In this document: positions 24,391 through 39,491 of the stretch, piece after piece
Layout of the letters: every line of letters starts with the position of its first letter
How positions within the stretch are numbered: the stretch's first letter is position 1
Source of the DNA: Gloeocapsopsis dulcis
GTDB taxonomy: Bacteria > Cyanobacteriota > Cyanobacteriia > Cyanobacteriales > Chroococcidiopsidaceae
Assembly: GCF_032163395.1 (NCBI RefSeq)
Contig: NZ_CP119968.1
Span: 3,188,001-3,252,000, forward strand
Direction: 5' to 3'
DNA length: 64,000 nucleotides
The notes under the pieces: generated by a model
What the model was told of the DNA's origin: nothing
The model's database searches: none
What the model saw: the letters and a program-made list of their open reading frames with translations, nothing else
Program-made: the position numbers and the translations under genes

Positions 24391-25545
24391 ATGCTTGCTG
24401 AAACAATCAATAACACCAATTTTGTTAGTAGATTAGCAATATTAAAGCAAGAAAGATTTAGTGGCAAATTATTACTTAAAGATCAAACTCAAGAGTGGAA
24501 TCTTTATCTTTTTCTTGGACGAATCTTATATGCAACGGGAGGGCATCATCCTGTAAAGCGCTGGCGAAGACATCTACTTGCTTACTGTCCTCAAGTTGAT
24601 GTCAATACACTTAAAATTACAGAAAATAACGTGAGCCTCACTGGAGATATTTCTTGGGAATATCTCTTGCTATATTCTGCAGTTGAACAACAACACATCT
24701 CTCGCGATCAGGCAGCAAAAATTATTGCTTCAATTGTTGCCGAAGTGTTATTTGACGTAACTCAAGTAATATCTATTACCTGTGAAGTTAAGCCAGAAAG
24801 TCTCTCTGTACCGCAACTTGTCTTGCTCGATCCAGGACAAGCGATCGCTGAAGCTCAGCACGCATGGCAAAACTGGCAAAAAGCTAAACTAGCAAACTGT
24901 TCGCCAAATCGCGCACCAGTCATCCGCGAACCTGAACAATTACGACAGCAAGTATCCCCTGCAGTTTTTCAGAATCTTTCAAAACTCTTAGATGGACAGC
25001 GATCGCTACGGGATATTGCAGCAGGAATGAAGCGGGATGTTGTGGAAGTAACAGCATCACTACTACCTTATATTCAATCAGGATTAATTGAATTTGTTGA
25101 TATTTCCGATACTGCACCACCAATTGCACCGCCAGCAGTAGTCTCACAACCTGCAATAACTACATCAAAAACTTTAATTGCTTGCGTTGATGATAGTCCG
25201 CTAGTGTGTCAAAGTTTAGAAAAGATTTTAACGACGGCAGGCTACCAATTTGTAGCGATTCAAGACTCGTTACGCGCGATCGCGACATTACTTACCCGCA
25301 AGCCAGATTTGATCTTTTTAGATCTAGTCATGCCAAACACGAATGGATATGAAATTTGTAGTCAGCTACGCAAGGTTTCTGTCTTTCGTGACACTCCAAT
25401 TATTATTCTCACTGGTAATGATGGCATCATCGATCGGGTCCGAGCCAAACTTGTTGGTGCCACAGATTTTCTCAGCAAGCCAGTAGATGCTCAAACGTTG
25501 CTAGAGGTAACACAAACACACCTCAATAAAACCCCACAGGTGTAA
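24391..25545 (+). CDS. pixG: PatA/PixG-type response regulator (PATAN domain plus receiver)
   Basis: A protein of 384 residues. The N-terminal PATAN/DUF4388 domain (about 1-110, FSGKLLLKDQTQEWNLYLFLGRILYATGG) is followed by a helical middle, a proline-rich linker (APPIAPPAVV, about 240-252) and a C-terminal receiver (260-380). The receiver has the acidic pair in CVDDSPLVC, phospho-acceptor Asp311 (FLDLVMPN) and LSKP. PatA-family regulators are the first genes of cyanobacterial phototaxis operons and act on type IV pilus motors. It is the first of nine same-strand genes and is presumably phosphorylated by the CheA encoded at 35710. The name follows gene order (PatA, CheY, CheW, MCP, CheA). Confidence 0.88.
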   Translation: MLAETINNTNFVSRLAILKQERFSGKLLLKDQTQEWNLYLFLGRILYATGGHHPVKRWRRHLLAYCPQVDVNTLKITENNVSLTGDISWEYLLLYSAVEQQHISRDQAAKIIASIVAEVLFDVTQVISITCEVKPESLSVPQLVLLDPGQAIAEAQHAWQNWQKAKLANCSPNRAPVIREPEQLRQQVSPAVFQNLSKLLDGQRSLRDIAAGMKRDVVEVTASLLPYIQSGLIEFVDISDTAPPIAPPAVVSQPAITTSKTLIACVDDSPLVCQSLEKILTTAGYQFVAIQDSLRAIATLLTRKPDLIFLDLVMPNTNGYEICSQLRKVSVFRDTPIIILTGNDGIIDRVRAKLVGATDFLSKPVDAQTLLEVTQTHLNKTPQV

Positions 25546-25609
25546 TTGAGTTTTTCTCACTCTTCAGTACAACAAACACAACTAGTTACTATCTTTTTGA
25601 GGTTAAACA

Positions 25610-25975
25610 ATGAATACAGTTTTAGTCGTTGATGACTCCATTACCGAAATCGAAATTATTAGCAGTTGTTTGCGTCGTAGCGGATTAAATGTGATCACCG
25701 CGTGTGATGGTGGTGATGCCATGAACAAACTTAGTGGTCAAAAACCAGATGCAATCATTTTAGATGTTGTCCTACCAGACAAAAGTGGCTTTGAACTTTG
25801 CCGCGATCTCAAAGCAGAAGCAAGTACCAGTAAAATTCCCGTCGTAATTTGCTCAACTAAGGGCAGTGATATGGATAAATTCTGGGGTAAAAAGCAGGGA
25901 GCCGACGCTTATCTCGCGAAACCTGTTGATCAAGAAGAACTGGTACGCACTGTTAAGCAACTAATTCAAGGTTAA
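25610..25975 (+). CDS. pixH: CheY-like single-domain response regulator
   Basis: A lone receiver domain of 121 residues. Acidic residues Asp8/Asp9 (LVVDDSITE), phospho-acceptor Asp52 (ILDVVLPDKSG), the conserved Ser/Thr in ICSTKG and Lys104 (LAKPVD) are all present. It would take phosphate from the operon's CheA and act as output or as phosphate sink next to the PatA-type regulator. It is preceded by GAGG eight bases before the ATG, 64 bases after pixG and 33 before the CheW gene. Confidence 0.92.
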   Translation: MNTVLVVDDSITEIEIISSCLRRSGLNVITACDGGDAMNKLSGQKPDAIILDVVLPDKSGFELCRDLKAEASTSKIPVVICSTKGSDMDKFWGKKQGADAYLAKPVDQEELVRTVKQLIQG

Positions 25976-26008
25976 GGCAATGATATTAGCCTCGCCAGGA
26001 GACGAACC

Positions 26009-26572
26009 ATGATGTCTGATTTGACTAGAGGCACTACACCTAGCATTTCCTCTGCACAAACCGTTGGTGTGACTCAACAGTTCTTGCGGTTACACCTTAT
26101 GCCTGATACAACAGCTATGCTGGCAGTGAATCAGATCAGCGAAGTGCTTACTATCCCGATGACTCAAGTTATACCGATTCCCCATATGCCAGCTTGGGTA
26201 TTGGGTGTCTATAACTGGCGGGGTAATATTTTATGGATTATAGATCTGGGGCATTTATTAGGACTAACTCCCTTATCTCAACATACAACTACCTCTTCTA
26301 CTTATACTGCTGTAGTCATTCGTGATGCTCAGCAACGTAGAGCTACTTTAGGAAATCAAAATACTAGTGACAAAGCACTAGGGTTGTTCGTTAACCGAGT
26401 AGAAGACCTCGAATTGTGCAATCCAGATGCCATTCAATCACCGCCTGAATCTGCAGTGAGATCTGAATTAGTACCTTATTTACGTGGTTATTGGCTGAAG
26501 CACACTGGTGAAATTTTCGTGGTTCTTGATGGCAACTCAATTATTGCTGGAATGACTCAATCCAATTTTTAG
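26009..26572 (+). CDS. pixI: CheW-like adaptor protein
   Basis: One CheW domain in 187 residues (about 24-180). The recognisable stretch is AVNQISEVLTIPMTQVIPIP, then VLGVYNWRGNILWIIDLGHLLGL, matching the receptor- and kinase-binding barrel. The first 23 residues are a disordered leader. An AGGAG seven bases upstream supports the ATG at 26009 over the next ATG at 26012. It would couple the three chemoreceptors to CheA. A second, shorter CheW-like protein is encoded after cheA, so receptor-specific adaptors are possible. Confidence 0.9.
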   Translation: MMSDLTRGTTPSISSAQTVGVTQQFLRLHLMPDTTAMLAVNQISEVLTIPMTQVIPIPHMPAWVLGVYNWRGNILWIIDLGHLLGLTPLSQHTTTSSTYTAVVIRDAQQRRATLGNQNTSDKALGLFVNRVEDLELCNPDAIQSPPESAVRSELVPYLRGYWLKHTGEIFVVLDGNSIIAGMTQSNF

Positions 26573-26764
26573 CGAGGGATATTTCATCTCAAACTAGCTT
26601 AAGTCGTTCATATTTCGGTTCTCGCTAATTGTTACTTGCCAAGCGCAGTCAGCAATTAGCATTAGTGTGCTTGCAATCTCAGTAAGCCTTTAACTCATAC
26701 ACGATATCAAACCTTTGTTTGAAGGTTTTGATGTAAATAACTATATTTTTATTAGTTTTTACCT

Positions 26765-29605
26765 ATGGTTCCCTCTTCTGAACCCAATACAAAGACCTCT
26801 ATAAGTGATGTGCCTGATCAATCCTCGCACACAGTTACTATTCACAACCAGCCACCGCAAACGGAATCGCCAAGCCATGAGTCAGCTACTCCAGATTTAA
26901 ATACAAGCGAATTGCCACAGCAAGTAGCAAGTAGTCCATTTTTGGCAAAACAACACAAAGCTAAACAGCGTAAGTTTAGAGGTATTGGCTTACGACATAA
27001 AGCAACAGTACTTGCGATCGCACTTAGTACACTTCCTGTATTAGCAATTGGTGCTACAGCTTATCACTTTGCGCAACAAGCATTTGTCAAACAGGTTATT
27101 CAAGGGCAAGTCGAAAAAACGTCTCTGATCGCGAATAAAGCTAATGGCTTTATGTTTGAGCGCTATGGAGATCTGCAAACGCTATCAAGTTTGGCAATTT
27201 TTACAGATACTCAGTTGCGATCGCAAACAACTTTGCAACAAAAGCAAGAACTCCTCGATTCCTATATCAAAAATTACAGAATCTACAACAGTATCGCTGT
27301 ATTTGATCTTGATGGTAATGTACTATTTCAATCGCAAGGTAAACCCTTAGCTAACCATCGAGATCGAGTGTATTTTCAACTAGTTAAGAAAAATGCCAAA
27401 CCATACATTGGCTTTCCTGAGAAATCACAATCATCAGGCGAACTAGTCATTCATTTTGCGGCACCGATTCGCGATCGCAATACAGGCGAAACGATTGCTA
27501 TCCTTCGTACGCGTATGCCGGTCAAGCAACTTGAAAATTTTCTGCTGACTGAAGGTGTAAAAGATGAATATCGTATCCTTGATGCGGCTGGAGAAGTTTT
27601 TATTGCCACTGGCGAAGAACATCATCTCAGCGGAGAATTTTTTGAGCATTTTCCTGAACTTGCAAAACCCTTAATCACAAGAAAATCTGGCTCGCAAATT
27701 ATTACTGATCTCGAAAACAAAAAGGAAGCCATAGCCGCATACACCCCAACACAAACGTGGGAAGGACTACCAGATTTGTACTGGCAAGTCGTGCTCCTCA
27801 AAGATAAGGCTGTAGCATTTGCCCCCTTAGAACGTTTAGAAGCAACCCTCATATTAGGAACAGGACTTACAGCGCTTCTTGTCGGTTTACTTGCTGCATA
27901 CCTAGCTAACCGTGCTACTAAACCGATCTTGATAGCAGCCGATACTGTAGAGCAACTCGGACAAGGACAACTTGACAGCCGGATTCCTATCAAAGGTAAT
28001 GACGAACTTGCCGCTCTCAGCGCTAATATTAACCACATGGCGGATCAGTTGCAGCAGCGGGAGCAAGCGTTGATTAAGAACCAAGAAGCCCAAGCTGAAC
28101 AGACGCGGTTCTTTGCTAACATTGGCTTCCTCCGCACCCATGGCGCTCAAGATATTGAGCCTATTTTCCAAAAGGCACTTAAAGGTGCTCGCAAAATTCT
28201 GAATGTTGACAGAGTCGTTATTTATCGCTTCAACTCTGACTGGAGTGGATATATTGCAGCCGAATCTGTTGCACCAGGTTTACCACAGTTTCTATCAGAT
28301 CAAATCAACGCGTGGATTCCTGAGGATCACTTACAAGCATATCGCAAAGGACGTATTGTTTCGACAGACAACATCTTGGAGGCAGATTTGCATCCCGACC
28401 ATTTGCAGTTGATGGAACGACTGCAAACCAAGGCTAGTTTAGGAACACCAATTCTCAAAGACGGTCAGTTGTTCGGCTTGCTCATTACACATCACTGTTT
28501 GGCTCCTCATACTTGGCAGCAGGATGAAATCAATTTCTTGCGGCAATTAGCATCCCAGCTAGGATTTATCTTAGACCGAGTGACTTTCGTGGAACAGCAA
28601 AAAACTGCCAAAGAACAATTGCAACAACGTGCTTTAGAGCTATTGCAAGAAGTTGATCCTGTCAGCCGTGGCGATTTGACTATTCGCGCTAAAGTTACTG
28701 CTGATGAAATCGGAACTGTTGCTGACTCTTACAACGCTACAATCAACAGCTTACGACGGATTGTAGGTACAGTGCAGAATGCAGCAGCGCAGGTAGCTAG
28801 TACGACCTCGAGTAATGAAATGGCTGTTGCAGAACTATCGACTGAAGCGTTACGTCAAGCCGAAGAAATTTCCGGTGCCCTAGACAAAATTCGCCAGATG
28901 TCACTTTCAATTCAAGCTGTTGCAGAAAGTGCAGCACAAGCAGAAGTCGCCGTACAACAAGCAAACGAAACGGTAGACGCAGGCGATCAAGCCATGAACC
29001 GTACCGTTGATGGGATCGAGGCAATTCGGGAAACTGTGGCAGCAACAGCAGCCAAAGTGAGACAACTAGGTGAGTCTTCACAAAAAATTTCTAAGGTGGT
29101 GAGTCTGATTAGTTCCTTTGCAGAGCAAACCAACTTGTTGTCACTAAATGCAGCAATTGAAGCAGCACGCGCTGGAGAAGAAGGACGAGGATTTGCAGTA
29201 GTTGCGGATGAAGTAGGTTCTCTCGCACGGCAATCGGCAGAAGCTACAGCAGAAATTGAAAACCTCGTTGCAGAAATTCAAGCAGAAACCAATGCCGTAG
29301 TAGCTGCAATGGAAGCCGGAACTGAACAAGTTGTGAACGGAACTCGTTTAGTGGATGAAACACGTCAAAGTTTGAACAAGATCACTGTGGTGAGTGCTCA
29401 GATTAGCTCTTTGGTACAAGCAATTAGTGAAGCTTCTGCTACACAATCACAAGCCTCTGAGGAGGTGACTCAAACGATGAGTGATGTAGCAGCGATCGCC
29501 GATCGGACTTCTAATGAAGCGACTCAAGTATCTGCCGCGTTTAAGCAACTACTGGCAGTAGCGGACGAAATGCAAACGAGTGTTGGTCAGTTCAAAGTTA
29601 ATTAG
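26765..29605 (+). CDS. Methyl-accepting chemoreceptor 1 with GAF domain lacking bilin cysteines
   Basis: A protein of 946 residues. A disordered cytoplasmic leader (1-75) is followed by TM1 (79-101), an extracytoplasmic Cache-like sensor (102-358), TM2 (about 362-383), HAMP, a GAF domain (about 452-612), a second HAMP (628-676) and the MCP signalling hairpin with the tip [20 protein letters not shown]. The GAF domain is of the cyanobacteriochrome/PixJ lineage ([25 protein letters not shown]). The bilin-binding CH site reads Asp545-His546 (HPDHLQL), and the DXCF position reads AWIP, so neither cysteine is present and a covalent chromophore is unlikely. It probably senses small molecules through the Cache domain. 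There is no clear ribosome binding site before the ATG. Confidence 0.9.
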
Positions 29606-29695
29606 GGATTAGGGGCTAGTGGCTAATTGTTTTTTTATCTTCTCTTTAGTCATTCCCCAATTCCCAATTTCTAACTCTTATATTTAATAATCACT

Positions 29696-32600
29696 ATGTT
29701 AGATCGCCACCTTCAAGAATCTGGAAATGATAGTAAAATTAGTGATTCGACGTCTAGCAACATTGAATCCGACTCACTAGAAGCCTATTCCCTGAGTTCA
29801 AAACCAGCCTCTATCCAACCGTTACAATCCACATCTCAGCCTAAGTCTAAAAATGCCTTTGCTCAATTGCGTCGCGCATGGAACAACTTAACCTTTAGAA
29901 CTAAACTGACTCTCATTTTAGTTGGTAGTGCTGCTCTACCTGTAGTTATTGTCACACAAGGCTTAATTACTCTAAATAAAGAGCGCGCTTTCGACGAATT
30001 GAAACACACTTTGCAACAGCAAGGACAAAGTTTTACGAACGAGTATGTTCTTCGGACACAGGTAGATACTGAAACCCAAGCAGAAAATATAGCTAACATC
30101 CTGCAAGCAACTGAAATTGATCTCAGTAACCCTGCTCAAGTAGCAGCGCGTCGCGAACTTATTGAAAATTACTTAGTCATTAACGAAAATCAAGAAAGTC
30201 CTGAGCTTACTAAAAATTTTAAAATTATTACTGATGCTCAAGGTAAAACAGTTGCACAAAACATTTTTGTTGGAGATGATAATTTCTCTAATCAGCCACT
30301 TTTACCTGTACTAAATCAGGAATTAAGCTTACAAAAATATCAACGCGTATCTCTACCTACAGGAATTTCTCTTACTGATATTCCAATTGTCCAAAATGCT
30401 CTCAAAACAGGACAACCTCTCTCTGGTATCGAGTTAGTTAAAAATCAATCTTTACAAAAAATAGGTTTAGCAAAGCAGGCCGATATTGGTTTACGGCAAC
30501 AACCCAACCAAAACCTTGCTGAAGCAAAAAGACCTTTTCCAGAAGGAACGTACGACATTGATGGTGGAAAAGCGGGCTTACTTAGCATGGCAGTTCATCC
30601 CGTCAAAATTAATAATAAATTAGTTGGCACTGTTGTCATCGGTACTCTATTTAACCGTAATTACGGTTTAGTAGATAAGTTTACGCAAATTTATAACGGA
30701 CCTGTAGCTACTATATTTGCTAAAGACTGGAGAGTAGTCACCAACGTTCCTTACACTGACGGCAAAACGCGAGCTATTGGCACGCGAGTTGCGCGTGAAG
30801 TAGCAGAAAAAGTGCTCAATCAAGGAAACGAATTTGTTGGAGCAACTAGTATTATTGGTCAACAATATCTCACCTTCTATACTCCCCTTTATGACCATCA
30901 AAAAGTACTTAACCCTGGACAAGCGAAGCCTGTAGGAATTGCCTTTGTTGGGAAATCTTTCTTAGAAGCTGATAATCACCTCGCCTATCAACAGTTCATT
31001 GCCTACAGCATTGGGGGTGGTATTCTGCTCATCGTAGGTTTGATTTCGATTCCTTTAGCTAGTTCTTTCTCGCGTCCGCTACGTCGTTTATCTGGTTTTG
31101 CAAAGCAAGTTGCAGACGGAAAGCAAGGGGTACGCTTAGAAATCAGCGACGATCGCCAAGACGAAATTGGGATACTCTCCCGCGAAATGAATACGATGGC
31201 GTCAAACATTGAAGCTAACTTAGAAGCACGTCGTCAAGAAGCGGAACGAGTCAAACTCTTTGCAGAAATTGCTGCTTCACGGGCACGTGAAGCTCAAGAC
31301 TTGAATGCAGTTTTTGACAAAGCAGTTTCAGGTGCAAGACAAATTATCGGTGCTGATCGAGTTGTTATTTATCGTTTCAACTCTGATTGGAGTGGGTATA
31401 TTGCCGCCGAATCAGTTTTGCCTGGATGGACTGTCGCTTTATCCCAGGAAATTAGCGATCCTTGTATTCCCAATCATCTGATTGAAGCTTATAAAAAAGG
31501 TCGGGTCGTTGCCACTAACAATGTTTTGGAGACAAATTACCATCCTAAACACAAAAAGTTATTTGAACGACTACAAATTAAAGCAAATTTAGTCGTACCT
31601 ATTCTGCAAAACGACCAACTGTTCGGCTTACTCGTAGCGCATCACTGCTTAGCAACGCATGAATGGCAGCAATCAGAAATTGACTTCTTATCCCAAGTAT
31701 CTACTCAAGTAAGATTAGCACTCGACCGTGTAGGGACTCTCGAACAAATCATTCAAGAGAAAGCCAAACTTCAAAGACGAGCATTAGAACTCTTGATGGA
31801 GGTTGATCCTCTAACGCAGGGCGATCTCACAATTCGTGCCAGCGTAACCGAAGATGAAATCGGGACAATCGCCGACTCCTACAACGCCACGATCGCCAGC
31901 TTACGCCAAATCGTTTCCCAAGTACAAGAGGCAGCTCAACAAGTCGCCATAACTACTAGTAACAAAGAAAGTTCAGTTTCTGAACTTTCGCAAGAAGCAT
32001 CGCGCCAAGCTGAAGAGATTACTAGTGCTTTAGCTCGAATTCAACAAATGGCAACCTCGATTCGCGCAGTTGCTACTAACGCTGAACAGGCAGAAGCTGC
32101 AGTACAACAGGCAAGCCAAACCGTAGCTGAAGGTGATACGGCGATGAACCGCACAGTCGATGGAATTCTAGCAATTCGAGAGACTGTAGCACAAACATCA
32201 AAAAAAGTCAAGCGATTGGGTGAGTCTACGCAAAAGATTTCTAAAGTAGTCAACTTGATTAGTACGTTTGCCGATCAAACAAACTTACTCGCCCTCAATG
32301 CCGCAATCGAAGCAGCGAATGCTGGCGAACAAGGACGTGGTTTCGCAGTCGTAGCCGAACGCGTACGAGGACTAGCACGGCAATCAACCGAAGCAACCGC
32401 AGAAATTGAAAAGCTAGTCACTGACATTCAAACCGAAACGAATGAAGTTGTGGCAGCCATGGAAGCTGGTACAGAACAAGTCGTAGCAGGTACGCAGCTT
32501 GTCGATGAAACTCGTCAAAGCCTGAACAAAATTTCTGACGTCAGTGCCCAAATTAATGAGTTAGTGAGAGCGATCGCTACGGTTACAGTGGAGCAAAGTC

Positions 32601-32755
32601 AAGCTTCCGAGGAAGTGACACAAACAATGTCTGATGTAGCTGCGATCGCTAACAAAACCCTCACCGAGGCAACGCAAGTCGCCGCATCCTTTAAGGAACT
32701 GTTGGCAGTTGCTCAAAAACTCCAAGCTAACGCCAGTCAATTCAAAGTCAATTAA
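29696..32755 (+). CDS. Methyl-accepting chemoreceptor 2 with half-degenerate DXCF-type GAF domain
   Basis: A protein of 1019 residues with the same plan: leader (1-65), TM1 (71-93), a long periplasmic sensor (94-435), TM2 (436-458), HAMP, GAF (about 525-680), second HAMP and signalling hairpin. The GAF reads [17 protein letters not shown], so Cys590 sits at the DXCF position (DPCI). The canonical chromophore cysteine is replaced by Lys618 in HPKHKKL. It is therefore unlikely to bind bilin in the normal way. The hairpin tip also differs from consensus ([19 protein letters not shown]). It lies 90 bases after receptor 1 and 12 before receptor 3. It could be a chemical sensor or a former photoreceptor. 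Confidence 0.9.
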
Positions 32756-32767
32756 TCAGAGATAGCC

Positions 32768-35632
32768 ATGTTAGATTATCGCTTCAATGAATCTCCCCCA
32801 GAGCAGCAAACAGAATTAGCATCAGTACAGCCACAGCAGAAAAATAGTCCTGCTCGTTCCCAAGCGCGTAAATCCTTTGCACTTCAATGGTTTTATGACT
32901 TACCCATTAGTCGTAAACAGCTAATCATTGCGGCAACTTCATTAACCTCAATTGTCAGCATCGTCGGTGTCGGAGCTTGGCTCAATATCAAGGGTTTACG
33001 AACTCAATTAGTTCACCAAGCAAAATCAGAAGTAGCGGTTACGGAAATTAGCTACAACATTAAAGTTAACCAAATGAGCTTTGGTTTTCGCGGACAAGCT
33101 GATAATGCTGCAATTGTTGCTGCTGCCAAAACCCCAACCTTAACGCCAGACCTCCAAAATCAAGTCAAGCAGATCTTACGCAATGAAATCAAAGCGCGGA
33201 ATATTGAATATGCCACATTGGTAGGACAAGATCTGCGCATCATTGTCAATGCTAATGCTGATCGGACAGGAGAAGTTTTTAATCCTAACAATTTAGTAAA
33301 AGAAGTTTTTAGCGATCCTAGGCAGATTAAAGCTAGTGCAGTCGTCAACTGGACTGAACTAGCAAAAGAATCTCCACCTCTACCCGCTGGGTTTAAGAAT
33401 GAAGATGCCCTAATCCGCTATACTGTAACACCTGTTAGAGATCCAGCCACAAAGTCAGTTATTGGAGCTTTAGTTTCTGGAGATATTGTTAATCATAAAT
33501 TACCGATTGTTCAAGGAACCTTAAAAGCGCTCCAAGATGGCTACAGTGCTGTTTATTTTCGTAAACCTACAGGAGAATTTGTTCTAGCTACCTCTCTAAA
33601 TCAAGGCTCAGAGAAATCAGAAAATTTAGACAATGCTCAATCTAATGTAGATTTGTCAAATCTATCTTTACTAAAAGCAGCAGTAGATACGCAAGGTGAG
33701 CCAGTCGCAGAACGAACAAAAGTAGCTGGAGTAACATATACTTTAGCAGCTAAGACACTACCTAATATCTTTAAAGAAGAAGCAAGTGGTTCGGTTCCTG
33801 TTTCTACCACCGAGCCAGTAGCAATCTTAGTACGAGGAACTCCAAATACAGAGGCTGATAGGGTCATTGCAGGAAGTTTATCAGCACAACTACTGCTGGG
33901 TTTACTAGCTTTGTTAGCCAATTTGGGCTTAGTAGTAATTATTTCGCGAGCACTTTCTAAACCTGTTCAAGAACTACGGCGGACTGCCCAGCAATTCACG
34001 ACAGGCAATAGCTACGCACGAGCAGAAGTATTTGCCGCAGATGAGGTTGGTCAACTGGCTCTAAGTTTTAACCAAATGGCTGACAGTATTGAGGTCAACT
34101 TAGCCAATCGTCGTCAAGAAGCGGAGCGAGCACGATTCCTTAAGGATATTACCTTACGCCTAGGGCAATACACTCAAGTACAAGATATCTTTAATACTGC
34201 TGTCAGCGAAATCCGCCAAGTTCTACAAAGCGATCGCGTAGTTGTCTATACTTTCAATGAGCAATGGCAAGGTACTGTGATTGCAGAATCGGTAGCTGAA
34301 GGTTTTCCGGTAGCCTTTGGTGCAAATATCAACGATCCTTGTTTTGCTGACAAATATGTGGAACGCTATCGCCAAGGACGGGTGCAAGCAACAGAAGATA
34401 TTTATGCTGTAGGTTTAACCGAATGCCACATTAAGCAACTTGAGCAGTTTGCTGTCAAAGCTAACTTAGTTGCCCCAATTCTTCAATATGGTCAGTTGCT
34501 CGGTTTATTAATTGCGCACCAGTGTTCTGCACCTAGGGCTTGGCAACAAGGTGAGATTGATATGTTTGCTCAGTTAACAACGCAAGTTGGCTTTGCATTA
34601 GACCGCGCCAACCTTTTGGCACAGCAAACACAAGCGAAAGAAAAACTACAACGACGTGCGCTTGAACTTTTAATCGAAGTTGATCCGCTTAACAAGGGTG
34701 ACTTAACGATTCGTGCGAATGTTACCGAAGATGAAATTGGCACGATCGCAGACTCTTACAACGCGACGATTTCCAGTCTCCGGCAAATTGTCAATAAAGT
34801 AAAAACTGCGGCTACACAAGTTGCAGCAACTACCAATGACAGTGAAGTATCGGTACAAGCTCTATCACAAGAAGCCTTACGTCAAGCCGAAGAAATTAGT
34901 GCTGCACTAAATCAGTTGCAAGCCATGGATAACTCGATTCGTGCTGTTGCTCAAAGTGCCAAGCAGGCTGAAGTTGCAGTACAAAAAGCGAACGACACTG
35001 TCGCAGCAGGAGATGCGGCGATGAACCGCACAGTCAATGGTATTGAAGCAATTCGGGACACAGTATCAGCAACGGCTCAAAAAGTCAGGCAACTTGGAGA
35101 ATCGTCGCAAAAGATTTCCAAGGTTGTGAACTTGATTGGTAGGTTTGCCGCACAAACAAATTTGCTAGCGCTGAAAGCTTCCATCGAAGCTGCGCGTGCG
35201 GGTGAAGAAGGACGTGGATTTGCAGTCCTTGCAGACGAAGTACGAGTCTTAGCAAGTCAGTCTGCTCAAGCTACTGTAGAAATTGAAAAACTTGTCTTAG
35301 ATATTCAAGCAGAAACTAACGCCGTAGTTGCCGCGATGGAAGCTGGAACTGAACAAGTTGTCGCTGGTACTGTCTTAGTCGATGACACGCGCCAACGTCT
35401 CAACCAAATCACTGCGATTAGTGAAGAACTCAGTAACCTGGTACAAGCAATTGGTGAAGCATCAGTAGTTCAGTCACAAGCTTCTGAGGCAGTTACGCAA
35501 CGGATGAACGATGTGGCAACGATCGCTAGTCAAACTTCAGATGAAGCGACTCAAGTATCAACTGCTTTTAAGCAATTAATGACCGTAGCTGATGAACTGC
35601 AAACGAGCGTTGGTCAATTCAAAGTGAATTAG
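32768..35632 (+). CDS. pixJ: Phototaxis receptor PixJ-like: chemoreceptor with DXCF-type cyanobacteriochrome GAF
   Basis: A protein of 954 residues: TM1 (50-72), a periplasmic sensor (73-365), TM2 (about 370-396), HAMP (396-450), GAF (465-620), second HAMP (637-690) and MCP hairpin. Unlike its two neighbours the GAF carries both cysteines of the blue/green cyanobacteriochromes. These are the DXCF motif Asp-Pro-Cys525-Phe in [17 protein letters not shown], and the canonical bilin-anchoring Cys553-His554 in [19 protein letters not shown]. From the known PixJ family I expect covalent phycocyanobilin or phycoviolobilin and blue/green photoswitching. The start is 12 bases after receptor 2. The hairpin tip reads [16 protein letters not shown] where [12 protein letters not shown] is usual. 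Confidence 0.88.
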
Positions 35633-35639
35633 GGCTTTT

Positions 35640-35656
35640 GCAGGCAAGATGCCTGC
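35640..35656. repeat. Palindromic repeat GCAGGCAAGATGCCTGC
   Basis: A perfect 17-base palindrome around AGA, and the second copy of the element at 6717-6733. It lies 8 bases after the third receptor's stop codon and could attenuate transcription into cheA. Confidence 0.55.
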
Positions 35657-35709
35657 GCCCACACTATCACTACTTATTTCTGTCTCTTTATATTTAAAGC
35701 TTTATAAAT

Positions 35710-38700
35710 ATGGCAATCGATTCTGATATCCGCGACCAAGCTTATCAGTTTTTTATCCAAGAAGCTCCTGAATTACTTCAAGTAATTGAAACAGACTTAT
35801 TAGCCCTAAGAGAAGAGCGTAGTACTGCTAAAATTCACAACATGATGCGCGCCGCACACTCAATTAAAGGTGGAGCTGCAAGTGTTGGGTTAGAAATCAT
35901 CAAAACCTTAGCTCATAGCTTAGAAGATATTTTTAAAGGTCTACATAATCCAGAATTAGAAATTGATGCCGATGTCGAAAACTTGTTACTTCAGGCATAC
36001 GACTGTCTTCGCTTGCCACTAATCGAGCAACTTAATACAGGGCAGTTTGATGCAGAACAAGCTATGGCAGATGCTGAGCCGGTCTTTGCCCAAATTGAAG
36101 CTCAAATAGGAGAATACCTTAAAGGCTCTAACGACATTCCTAGCTCGGTTGAGTTAGGTGTAGATATCGCAGCATCAATCTTTGAAGTAGACGTAGCACA
36201 AGGCATCGATCGTCTCACGCAAGTTTTAGCCCAGTCACAAGACAAAGAAACAATCGAAGGAGAAGTACGGGCGCAGGCAGAGGTTTTTGCTGGTCTCGCC
36301 GAACTTCTTAATTTACCTGGATTTGGAGCGATCGCATCAACAACGCTCGCTGCACTTGATGCGCATCCTAACGCAGCGATCGCAATTGCTCAAACGGCAT
36401 TAGCTGATTTTCAAGCAGCACGCTTAGCAGTACTGGCAGGCGAGCGCACACAAGGTGGTACTCCTTCCGATGCTTTGACAAGTCTCGTCAACCAGGCGGC
36501 ACCTGCTACCTTAGAGATTTCAACTTTAAAACAAAGCCAGCAACAATTACCACTGGAACAAATCAGCGATGGCTCTCCTACTGAAGCCGTGACATTATCT
36601 TTAGATGATCTCTTTAGTGATGGCAATAATGTAGAGCCTCTTTTAGACTTAGAACCTGCAGGAGTACTTACTTCAATAAATCAACTCGCAGGAGAAGTCG
36701 TCGCATTAGAAGCAGTTTCGCTTGATGATGTTTTTGGCAGCTTTGGAGCAGAATCTACCCCCGATACCAACTTAGCTGCGGTTTTTACACCTGAAAGCAC
36801 AGTACCGCAACCAGCTGTAGAACTAGCAACTTCTTCTCAAGAAAACATTACCGAACTCGTACAATCAGTCGAGCAGATATTTGCAACCACAAACTCATCG
36901 ACATCATCGAAACCGGATGTTACCACAAATTCTAGTCCTACGACTCAGCTCTCCGTGCGAGTTGACTTAGATCGGCTAGAACGAATGAACAACTTAATCG
37001 GCGAATTAGCTATTAACCGTAACAGTCTTTCACTACAAAACGAACAACTGCAAGCTACGATTCAAGAACTACTACGTCGCTTTACTAATTTCCAATCAAT
37101 GGCTCGGCAACTACGCGATCTATCTGACTTAATGGTAGTTGCACCTGAGCATCATGCGAGAGGTCGCTCCTCAATTGACCCAGGTATCTTGCCTATAAAA
37201 TCTCAGGGATTAGGAATGCAACGGGTAAATTCAGTGTCCTCAATCGCAGCTACTTCTACGCTGCTTCCCTCTTTGGCATCTTTTGATTCGTTGGAGATGG
37301 ATAGCTATAGCGAAGTTTACTCGTTGTTGCAAGCTACTTTAGAAGACGTGGTGCAACTCGAAGAGACAGTAGGTGACGTAGTTCTGCTCGCTGGACAGTC
37401 GAGTGACACGATCGAAAGACAGCGCCAAATGCTAGCACACTTGCGGGATGACCTGATGTGGGCAAGAATGTTGCCTTTAGGTGAGGTGCTTAACCGCTTT
37501 CCTCGAATGTTACGCGACTTGTCGCGATCGTATGACAAGGCAGTTGATTTAAAGCTGAGTGGTACTGGAGTTTTAGTTGATAAAGCAGTTTTAGAGAAGC
37601 TTTACGATCCTTTGTTGCACTTAGTACGTAATGCTTTTGATCATGGTATTGAACCCTCTAATGTACGTTTAGAGCAAGGTAAACTTGCGCAGGGCAAAAT
37701 TGAAATTCGAGCTTACCACCAGGGTAATCAAACGATTATCGAAGTAAGAGATGATGGCAGAGGATTAAACTTAGAACGGATTCGTGCTAAAGCTTCAGAA
37801 ACAGGTTTGTTATCTCCAGAACAAGTTACTACAGCTTCTACTGCACGTTTGTTAGATCTAATCTTTGAACCAGGGTTTTCTACCGCCAAGCAAGTGAGTG
37901 AACTGTCTGGTAGAGGTGTTGGACTCGATATCGTACGCGCTCAATTGCGATCGCTTAAGGGTAACGTTACGGTCAGTTCTGAACCAGGGAAAGGTAGCAT
38001 ATTTAGTTTACGGATTCCTCTAACACTAACAATTGCCAAGTTGTTAGTTTGTTTTGTAGGCACGAATGCTTATGCTTTACCTTCAGACAGTATTGCAGAG
38101 ATCTTGATTCCAGAAGTCAATCAAGTTAAATACTCTGGTGGTTATCGCTTCTTACACTGGCAAGACCATATTATTCCGATATATCGTCTATCTGAAGTTA
38201 TTAGATACAGTTGTCCGCTACCTGAGACAGTTCCTAATCTTAACTTAGAAGTATTCCCTACTCCAGAAGATTGGGCTTCTCCGATGTTGCTGTTGGAGCA
38301 AGAAAATAACATTGTTGCTGTCGAAGTTGACCGCTTAGTTACCGAGCAAGAATTAGTCATTAAGCCCTTTGGTAAAGCGATCGCACCACCAAACTATATC
38401 TACGGTTGTACGATTTTGGGTAATGGCAGTCTGATTCCAGTGATTGATGGAGCACAAATGCTGGCATCTTTTGCTGGCAGTCAAACCAACACCACGCATA
38501 CTGAGTTACCATCTGATTCGCCTGTAATTTCTAGTAGTGATAGTACTCCAACTATTGTTAAAAGGGATAGTACCCTAACCGTTTTAGTTGTTGATGATTC
38601 AATTACCCTACGCCAAACGTTGGTTCTCACACTGCAAAAAGCTGGTTATCGTGTTTTGCAAGCACGCGATGGACGTGAGGCGATTGAGCAATTGCAACAG

Positions 38701-38961
38701 TCAGTAATTCAACTTGTTGTCTGTGATGTGGAAATGCCAAACATGAATGGCTTTGAGTTTCTGAGCCATCGTCGCCAAGATCCGCAGATGAGCAAGATTC
38801 CAGTCGTGATGTTGACATCCCGTAGCAGTGATAAACATCGGCAGTTAGCAAAGCATTTAGGTGCAACTAATTACTTTACTAAACCTTATATCGAGCAAGA
38901 ATTTGTGGCTGCAATTAAAGACACGATTCAGCAAAATTCATCAATGATAGCTACCGTTTAG
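35710..38961 (+). CDS. pixL: CheA-type hybrid histidine kinase with receiver domain (PixL-like)
   Basis: A protein of 1083 residues. It has an N-terminal Hpt domain (5-110) with phospho-accepting His50 in AAHSIKGGAAS, then a long low-complexity linker (about 150-410) in place of a clear P2 domain. A dimerisation helix begins near 413 (VRVDLDRLERMNNLIGELA). The ATPase domain (about 600-770) has LVRNAFDHGIEP, DDGRG and GRGVGLDIVRAQ, the regulatory CheW-like domain covers about 770-920, and a receiver (955-1075) has phospho-acceptor Asp1006 (CDVEMPN) and TKPY. It is the kinase of the operon, taking input from the three receptors and passing phosphate to the PatA- and CheY-type regulators. The attached receiver may be a phosphate sink. 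Confidence 0.94.
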   Translation: MAIDSDIRDQAYQFFIQEAPELLQVIETDLLALREERSTAKIHNMMRAAHSIKGGAASVGLEIIKTLAHSLEDIFKGLHNPELEIDADVENLLLQAYDCLRLPLIEQLNTGQFDAEQAMADAEPVFAQIEAQIGEYLKGSNDIPSSVELGVDIAASIFEVDVAQGIDRLTQVLAQSQDKETIEGEVRAQAEVFAGLAELLNLPGFGAIASTTLAALDAHPNAAIAIAQTALADFQAARLAVLAGERTQGGTPSDALTSLVNQAAPATLEISTLKQSQQQLPLEQISDGSPTEAVTLSLDDLFSDGNNVEPLLDLEPAGVLTSINQLAGEVVALEAVSLDDVFGSFGAESTPDTNLAAVFTPESTVPQPAVELATSSQENITELVQSVEQIFATTNSSTSSKPDVTTNSSPTTQLSVRVDLDRLERMNNLIGELAINRNSLSLQNEQLQATIQELLRRFTNFQSMARQLRDLSDLMVVAPEHHARGRSSIDPGILPIKSQGLGMQRVNSVSSIAATSTLLPSLASFDSLEMDSYSEVYSLLQATLEDVVQLEETVGDVVLLAGQSSDTIERQRQMLAHLRDDLMWARMLPLGEVLNRFPRMLRDLSRSYDKAVDLKLSGTGVLVDKAVLEKLYDPLLHLVRNAFDHGIEPSNVRLEQGKLAQGKIEIRAYHQGNQTIIEVRDDGRGLNLERIRAKASETGLLSPEQVTTASTARLLDLIFEPGFSTAKQVSELSGRGVGLDIVRAQLRSLKGNVTVSSEPGKGSIFSLRIPLTLTIAKLLVCFVGTNAYALPSDSIAEILIPEVNQVKYSGGYRFLHWQDHIIPIYRLSEVIRYSCPLPETVPNLNLEVFPTPEDWASPMLLLEQENNIVAVEVDRLVTEQELVIKPFGKAIAPPNYIYGCTILGNGSLIPVIDGAQMLASFAGSQTNTTHTELPSDSPVISSSDSTPTIVKRDSTLTVLVVDDSITLRQTLVLTLQKAGYRVLQARDGREAIEQLQQSVIQLVVCDVEMPNMNGFEFLSHRRQDPQMSKIPVVMLTSRSSDKHRQLAKHLGATNYFTKPYIEQEFVAAIKDTIQQNSSMIATV

Positions 38962-39011: not shown

Positions 39012-39491
39012 ATGAAAAACGCTGCCAATTCAAATCTTCATAACCTGAAACATTCTCGCAGTCAAAATGCTGTAAAGTCCCAAAAACTAGTTGTCTTTGG
39101 CATGGGTAATATTACCTTAGCATTACCTAGCGACGCCGTATTTAAAGTAACGAACCAAGTGCCAGTCTATGGTTCTGGATTTAATGGTGTAGGGCTGGCA
39201 CATTTTGGCGATCGCCAGATGACCATTGTTGAGCTACATCGGCGCTTCTTTACAGTTAAAGGCAAATACTTAATCATTGCTGAGAATAAAGCAGAAAAAC
39301 TTTATGGCATTCCTGTTGCTGCTGTTCCGACTTTGATGGATGTCCCGTTATCGAGAATTCAAGTTTTATCAGACTCTTATCGTCATGCTGATCTATTAGC
39401 GATCGCAACTCATGTTTGTCACATTCCTCAAGCCGAAACACCCTTAACAGTCTTCTTGCTGGATGTCGATCAACTACTGCCATCTTCCTGA
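39012..39491 (+). CDS. Second CheW-like protein
   Basis: A protein of 159 residues with a single CheW-like domain from about residue 25 (KLVVFGMGNITLALPSDAVFKVTNQVPVYGSG). The pattern LAHFGDRQMTIVELHRRFF corresponds to the usual RG-x-hydrophobic core, but the Arg-Gly of typical CheW is missing, so kinase coupling may differ. It is 50 bases downstream of the CheA gene and 41 upstream of the GAF-PAS gene, hence in the same operon. It could be the adaptor of one particular receptor, or a modulator of the array. The ATG at 39012 is the only sensible start. Confidence 0.8.
   Translation: MKNAANSNLHNLKHSRSQNAVKSQKLVVFGMGNITLALPSDAVFKVTNQVPVYGSGFNGVGLAHFGDRQMTIVELHRRFFTVKGKYLIIAENKAEKLYGIPVAAVPTLMDVPLSRIQVLSDSYRHADLLAIATHVCHIPQAETPLTVFLLDVDQLLPSS

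Follow-up and report, generated by a model that had tools for sequence, protein, structure and literature searches.

A predicted pix operon of Gloeocapsopsis dulcis encodes an intact DXCF-type receptor beside two cysteine-poor receptors

The third of three receptors encoded by a predicted pix operon of Gloeocapsopsis dulcis contains a cyanobacteriochrome-type GAF domain with both bilin-linking cysteines, whereas the GAF domains of the first two lack this cysteine pair. We analyzed a 64,000-nucleotide stretch of the genome (the window; contig NZ_CP119968.1, positions 3,188,001 to 3,252,000) and read receptor 3 (R3), with high confidence, as a photoactive PixJ-type receptor that is the only probable photoreceptor of its operon and is accompanied by two blind receptors, R1 and R2. 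On its own, R3 as a blue/green PixJ-type sensor is ordinary and not new; it is the contrast with R1 and R2 that is less ordinary. PixJ proteins with one to five GAF domains have already been described, according to the accessible part of PMC13383048. Our literature searches, which were aimed more broadly and were confined to papers available without subscription, yielded no title or beginning of an abstract that described pix operons mixing blind and photoactive receptors.

Close comparisons were made with five genomes of the same family, comprising the congeners G001 (inferred to be Gloeocapsopsis crepidinum) and G002 as well as G004, G010 and G014, which belong to a second genus. The features discussed are collected in the table.

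Features of the predicted pix operon (positions are those of the window)
Feature	Position	Strand	Basis or detail
DUF4388 (PATAN-like) response regulator, PixG-like	24391..25545	+	Pfam
CheY-like response regulator, PixH-like	25610..25975	+	Pfam
CheW-like adaptor, PixI-like	26009..26572	+	Pfam
Receptor 1 (R1), dCache-HAMP-GAF-MCP, GAF with neither cysteine	26765..29605	+	ORF, Pfam
R1 GAF, cysteine-poor GAF1 type, closest to GAF1 of the G006 two-GAF receptor (72%)	28130..28600	+	
Receptor 2 (R2), sCache-HAMP-GAF-MCP; DPCI Cys kept, canonical Cys absent (PKH)	29696..32755	+	ORF, Pfam
R2 GAF, GAF1 type, closest among the tree rows to G005 receptor 2 (62%)	31289..31765	+	
Receptor 3 (R3), PixJ-type MCP, 954 aa	32768..35632	+	ORF; Pfam GAF, HAMP, MCPsignal
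R3 N-terminal extracytoplasmic double-Cache-like sensor region between two long helices	32768..33844	+	AlphaFold2 + Foldseek
R3 HAMP, residues 392-442	33941..34093	+	Pfam PF00672, E 3e-17
R3 cyanobacteriochrome GAF, residues 454-620	34127..34627	+	PDB 3vv4, E 6.7e-49; predicted model
R3 Cys525, second Cys of the DXCF motif (TePixJ Cys494)	34340..34342	+	in D523-P524-C525-F526 (DPCF)
R3 Cys553-His554, canonical bilin-binding Cys-His (TePixJ Cys522-His523)	34424..34429	+	Cys553 codon 34424-34426
R3 MCP signalling domain, residues 765-919	35060..35524	+	Pfam PF00015, E 1.2e-38
CheA hybrid kinase (Hpt, HATPase, CheW, receiver), PixL-like	35710..38961	+	Pfam

Receptor 3 has both cysteines of a DXCF cyanobacteriochrome

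Pfam assigned a GAF domain to residues 471-611 of R3 (E = 1.6e-17), with a HAMP domain before it and an MCP signalling domain after it, as is characteristic of PixJ receptors. An earlier note on this DNA had placed Cys525 in a DPCF motif and Cys553 next to His554 in receptor 3; both cysteines are indeed present, lie inside the Pfam GAF domain and align with the cysteines of TePixJ. The domain combines the GAF fold of the cyanobacteriochrome type, the canonical Cys followed by His, and the second Cys within Asp-Xaa-Cys-Phe, the features of a DXCF cyanobacteriochrome. Similarity across the whole GAF domain, seen in the Pfam and PDB matches, ruled out a chance occurrence of the cysteine motif.

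The N-terminal part of R3 gave no match in Pfam. Its AlphaFold2 model (mean pLDDT 81.8) contains a sensor region flanked on both sides by long helices, which by eye look hydrophobic and presumably lie in the membrane. The 50 Foldseek matches listed for this region were mostly ligand-binding domains of chemoreceptors and kinases (TlpA, Tlp3, DctB), with E-values between 1.6e-8 and 1.3e-5 and TM-scores to the query of only 0.27-0.43. The sensor region is exchangeable. It is present in G002 at 82%, a search of G001 with it returned no match at E 0.001, and the corresponding region of R3 in G001 is 21-28% identical to that of the window in 60-residue blocks. Matches to the region were found in 29 of 60 genomes (own genome included), several of them in open frames of 877-903 aa.

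The receptor 3 GAF domain resembles that of TePixJ

The GAF domain of Thermosynechococcus TePixJ (3vv4) was the best PDB sequence match of R3, ranking ahead of all others among the 53 distinct PDB sequences that matched with E-values of 0.001 or lower. The comparison with TePixJ (PDB 3vv4, 4fof, 4glq) concerns the GAF domain, over which 81 of 157 aligned residues are identical (52%), and the DPCF motif and the Cys-His pair are separated by an identical spacing of 28 residues. The predicted model of the R3 GAF domain (pLDDT 89.7) had as its first structural match 4fof, the blue-absorbing TePixJ crystal, with an rmsd of 1.1 over 149 columns. Eight of ten TePixJ positions looked at are kept in R3 (Asp492, Pro493, Cys494, Phe495, Arg507, Cys522, His523 and Gln526). 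TePixJ His498 and Trp499, which touch the B-ring propionate according to the portion of PMC6955287 available to us, correspond to Lys529 and Tyr530 in R3; these replacements, like the unusual Val548 discussed below, count against our reading of R3.

We fetched 67 dual-Cys GAF domains, for which the presence of both cysteines was the sole selection criterion. Tyr at the position of residue 530 is usual in this set (58 of 67), and the position of residue 554 is occupied by His in 55 domains and by Tyr in the other 12. In an alignment of 29 GAF domains, whose rows were chosen by motif, D523, C525, F526, C553 and H554 are invariant. The R3 orthologues of G010 and G014 (L064 6099-8834 and L065 6274-9009) have Tyr instead of His after the canonical Cys. 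Compared with the G002 orthologue, two 80-codon blocks covering most of the R3 GAF domain (480-640) gave dN values of 0.04 and 0.06 and dS values of 0.48 and 0.64; the domain is under purifying selection, with dN/dS of about 0.08 and 0.09.

For R3, as a DXCF dual-Cys domain of the TePixJ/PixJ type, our best guess is that it isomerizes phycocyanobilin (PCB) to phycoviolobilin (PVB) and undergoes a blue/green photocycle. This reading draws on family chemistry as presented in the accessible sections of PMC11284453 and PMC6955287. R3 is most likely a blue/green DXCF cyanobacteriochrome with phycoviolobilin, a designation well supported by homology. The same class and chromophore had been put forward in the earlier note, and at the level of homology (TePixJ sequence, predicted fold and family literature) they hold. 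The GAF domain would bind phycocyanobilin via Cys553 and isomerize it to phycoviolobilin; Cys525 would form a second, photolabile thioether to C10, so that the dark state absorbs blue light and the photoproduct green light. Through the MCP signalling domain of R3, the change brought about by light would reach CheW, CheA and the CheY/PATAN-CheY pair encoded alongside it, and would ultimately act on type IV pilus motility, with R3 working in a mixed array with the two blind, Cache-bearing receptors.

Receptors 1 and 2 contain cysteine-poor GAF domains

Neither R1, with NAWI and PDH at the two sites, nor R2, with DPCI at the first but PKH at the second, has the DXCF cysteine pair. In the GAF tree, both domains cluster with the first, cysteine-poor GAF domain of two-GAF PixJ proteins: R1 groups with that of the G006 two-GAF PixJ (98, starred) and R2 with the single GAF domain of G005 receptor 2 (94, not starred). 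The R3 GAF domain falls among the dual-Cys domains, where its group includes the R3 domains of G001 and G002 (97, starred). All trees were of a quick type without bootstraps; the long branches of the GAF tree include the GAF domains of G024, G042 and G036, and loci L047 and L048 were omitted from it as duplicates of L061 and L075. The accessible text of PMC5812497 places the chromophore of Synechocystis PixJ1 on the second GAF domain only, and domains of the first type are thus expected to be blind. By this reasoning R1 and R2 would be blind, and R3 is probably the only photoactive receptor of the operon; the R1 and R2 domains might still bind bilin non-covalently.

The congeners G001 and G002 have a three-receptor pix operon with the same gene set and orthologous R1, R2 and R3, in which all three receptors are dual-Cys, as opposed to one of three in the window. 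Counted over G001, G002, G004, G010 and G014, 15 of 15 receptors have both cysteines. Orthology is reflected in the MCP-domain tree by six-member clades for R1 (99), R2 (100) and R3 (100). Outside the GAF domain, R1 and R2 are mostly 68-98% identical to their orthologues in 60-residue blocks; lower values were obtained for the first block of R2 and, against the second genus, the first block of R1 (46-55%), and for the R2 block directly before the GAF domain (53-58%). In the GAF blocks identity is only 35-53%. Between R1 and its G002 orthologue, dS is 0.26-0.77 in eight of nine non-GAF blocks and 1.49 in the remaining one, and is saturated in two of the three blocks holding the GAF domain; the values for R2 are noisier, exceeding 1 in some non-GAF blocks as well.

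Survey of pix loci

Our survey took in the locus of the window and a single locus each from 20 further genomes, out of 59. The sample (15 of 18 genomes of the family and five of the 41 others) was taken from better-scoring places and is not random, some loci end near contig ends, and a domain was counted as dual-Cys when Cys occupied both positions, whatever the remaining motif. In 20 of the 21 loci at least one GAF domain has both cysteines; the exception, G042, has a second candidate contig outside the survey. Two-GAF receptors occur in nine loci (among them G013, with broken genes), and six contain only dual-Cys single-GAF receptors. A mixture of cysteine-poor and dual-Cys single-GAF receptors was found in five loci (the window, G005, G059, G024 and G036), and one locus has a single cysteine-poor receptor. 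In G013 (L073) the pix receptor genes are split up over separate frames, at least one of which has an internal stop. The second GAF domain of one two-GAF receptor of G015 (L071 6480-10007) has Ser in place of both cysteines (DPSF, ESY), a further way in which a receptor can become blind.

Alternative explanations

Within the DXCF class, R3 might follow a different photocycle (blue/teal, blue/orange or with PCB retained), tuned for example by Val548, Lys529 and Tyr530. The subfamily is known to include teal, yellow and orange photoproducts besides green, as stated in the accessible part of PMC5240096, and Val548, which lies five residues N-terminal of Cys553 and replaces an Ala of TePixJ, is nearly private to R3: of the 67 dual-Cys domains, 61 have Ala at this position and one other has Val. 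However, R3 retains His554, and the blue/green TePixJ is its nearest solved relative both in sequence and in fold; we regard a deviating photocycle as unlikely. Less probable still is that the operon no longer serves as a light system here, R3 being a relic and chemicals being sensed via the Cache domains. Although the cysteine pair is missing from R1 and R2 and all three receptors have kept extracytoplasmic sensor regions, the low dN/dS of the R3 GAF domain, its two conserved bilin-linking cysteines and the retention of at least one dual-Cys domain in nearly all surveyed loci speak against decay of light sensing.

How R1 and R2 came to differ from their orthologues can be explained in two ways. 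A GAF1-type segment may have replaced a dual-Cys GAF domain by recombination in the lineage of the window, blinding both receptors; alternatively, a two-GAF ancestor may have undergone reciprocal loss, of GAF2 in the window and of GAF1 in the relatives. Replacement is suggested by the dual-Cys domains in all three receptors of the congeners and the three second-genus genomes, by the orthologous flanks of R1 and R2, and by the placement of the window with G001 and G002, seen in the genus label as well as in the R3 GAF domain. On the other hand, no near donor emerged from 243 genomes of the order, for each of which up to 13 candidates were scored: the best match of the R1 GAF domain is at 72% (G006) and the next at 57%. 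Moreover, R1 of the window falls outside the congeners and the second genus in the MCP tree (82, not starred), which fits reciprocal loss. The window R1 and the two-GAF protein of G006 share four extra residues near the HAMP-GAF joint that are absent in G002 and G004. The two-GAF R1 of G012 lacks these residues too and has the same short joint as G002 and G004, which is thus not diagnostic. We hold replacement by recombination tentatively, at slightly less than even confidence.

Implications of a possible GAF exchange

It is conceivable, though in our view doubtful, that switching of the GAF type in orthologous receptors adjusts the number of light-sensitive receptors per phototaxis operon. 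On this view, two of the three receptors were turned blind here and light enters via R3 alone, its signal being weighed in mixed MCP arrays against chemical signals from the Cache-type domains of all three; the mixed composition, which five of the 21 loci show, would be an evolved gain control and not decay. The close relatives offer natural swaps of the sensing GAF domain in orthologous receptors with conserved signalling parts. These swaps amount to an experiment already set up by nature, one that addresses the number of photoactive receptors needed per MCP array and whether light and chemical inputs are summed.

Operon context, movement and genomic surroundings

According to Pfam, the region 24391-38961 encodes a DUF4388 response regulator, CheY, CheW, three MCPs and a hybrid CheA, the gene set of a PixJ operon. 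The DUF4388 domain of the first gene product we take to be PATAN-like. The PATAN name for the PixG-like regulator appears in the accessible text of PMC5812497. By the same source, the PixJ1/tax1 operon of Synechocystis likewise combines an MCP bearing a blue/green GAF domain with PATAN-CheY, CheY, CheW and CheA, but PixJ1 has two GAF domains, with bilin on the second, whereas the window encodes three receptors with one each.

The earlier note had further predicted blue-light-directed movement, which as stated is not supported. In Synechocystis, the sign of phototaxis depends on PixJ1 under light of several colours, the wild type has no motility response in blue light, and phototaxis of pixJ1 mutants is reversed to negative; only a cph2 mutant moves towards blue, so that PixJ1 can support such movement (PMC5812497, accessible text). 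PixJ1 is said to set direction via the blue/green ratio in the available part of PMC7690835, and the part of PMC13383048 at hand reports that photophobotaxis of Phormidium lacuna is dampened by PixJ, an effect notable in yellow light.

In support of our reading of R3, the genome (5.6 Mb, three contigs) contains one match to heme oxygenase (PF01126), one to PF05996, the ferredoxin-dependent bilin reductases, a family wider than PcyA, and five to the T2SSE motor ATPases, whose family extends beyond type IV pili. Besides R3, nine further places in the genome matched the GAF domain with E-values no higher than 3.1e-27, two of which are R1 and R2. A second pix-type operon (L056 6395-14474; G000:C1 about 3481394-3489473) encodes a DUF4388 regulator, CheY, CheW, an MCP and a CheA hybrid. 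Its MCP, of the organization dCache-HAMP-GAF-MCP with DPCF and DCH, is dual-Cys, which ruled out R3 as the sole photoreceptor of the genome. Downstream of CheA in the window, a 159-aa ORF (39012-39491) that gave no match in Pfam looks CheW-like by eye and is also present in G001 and G002.
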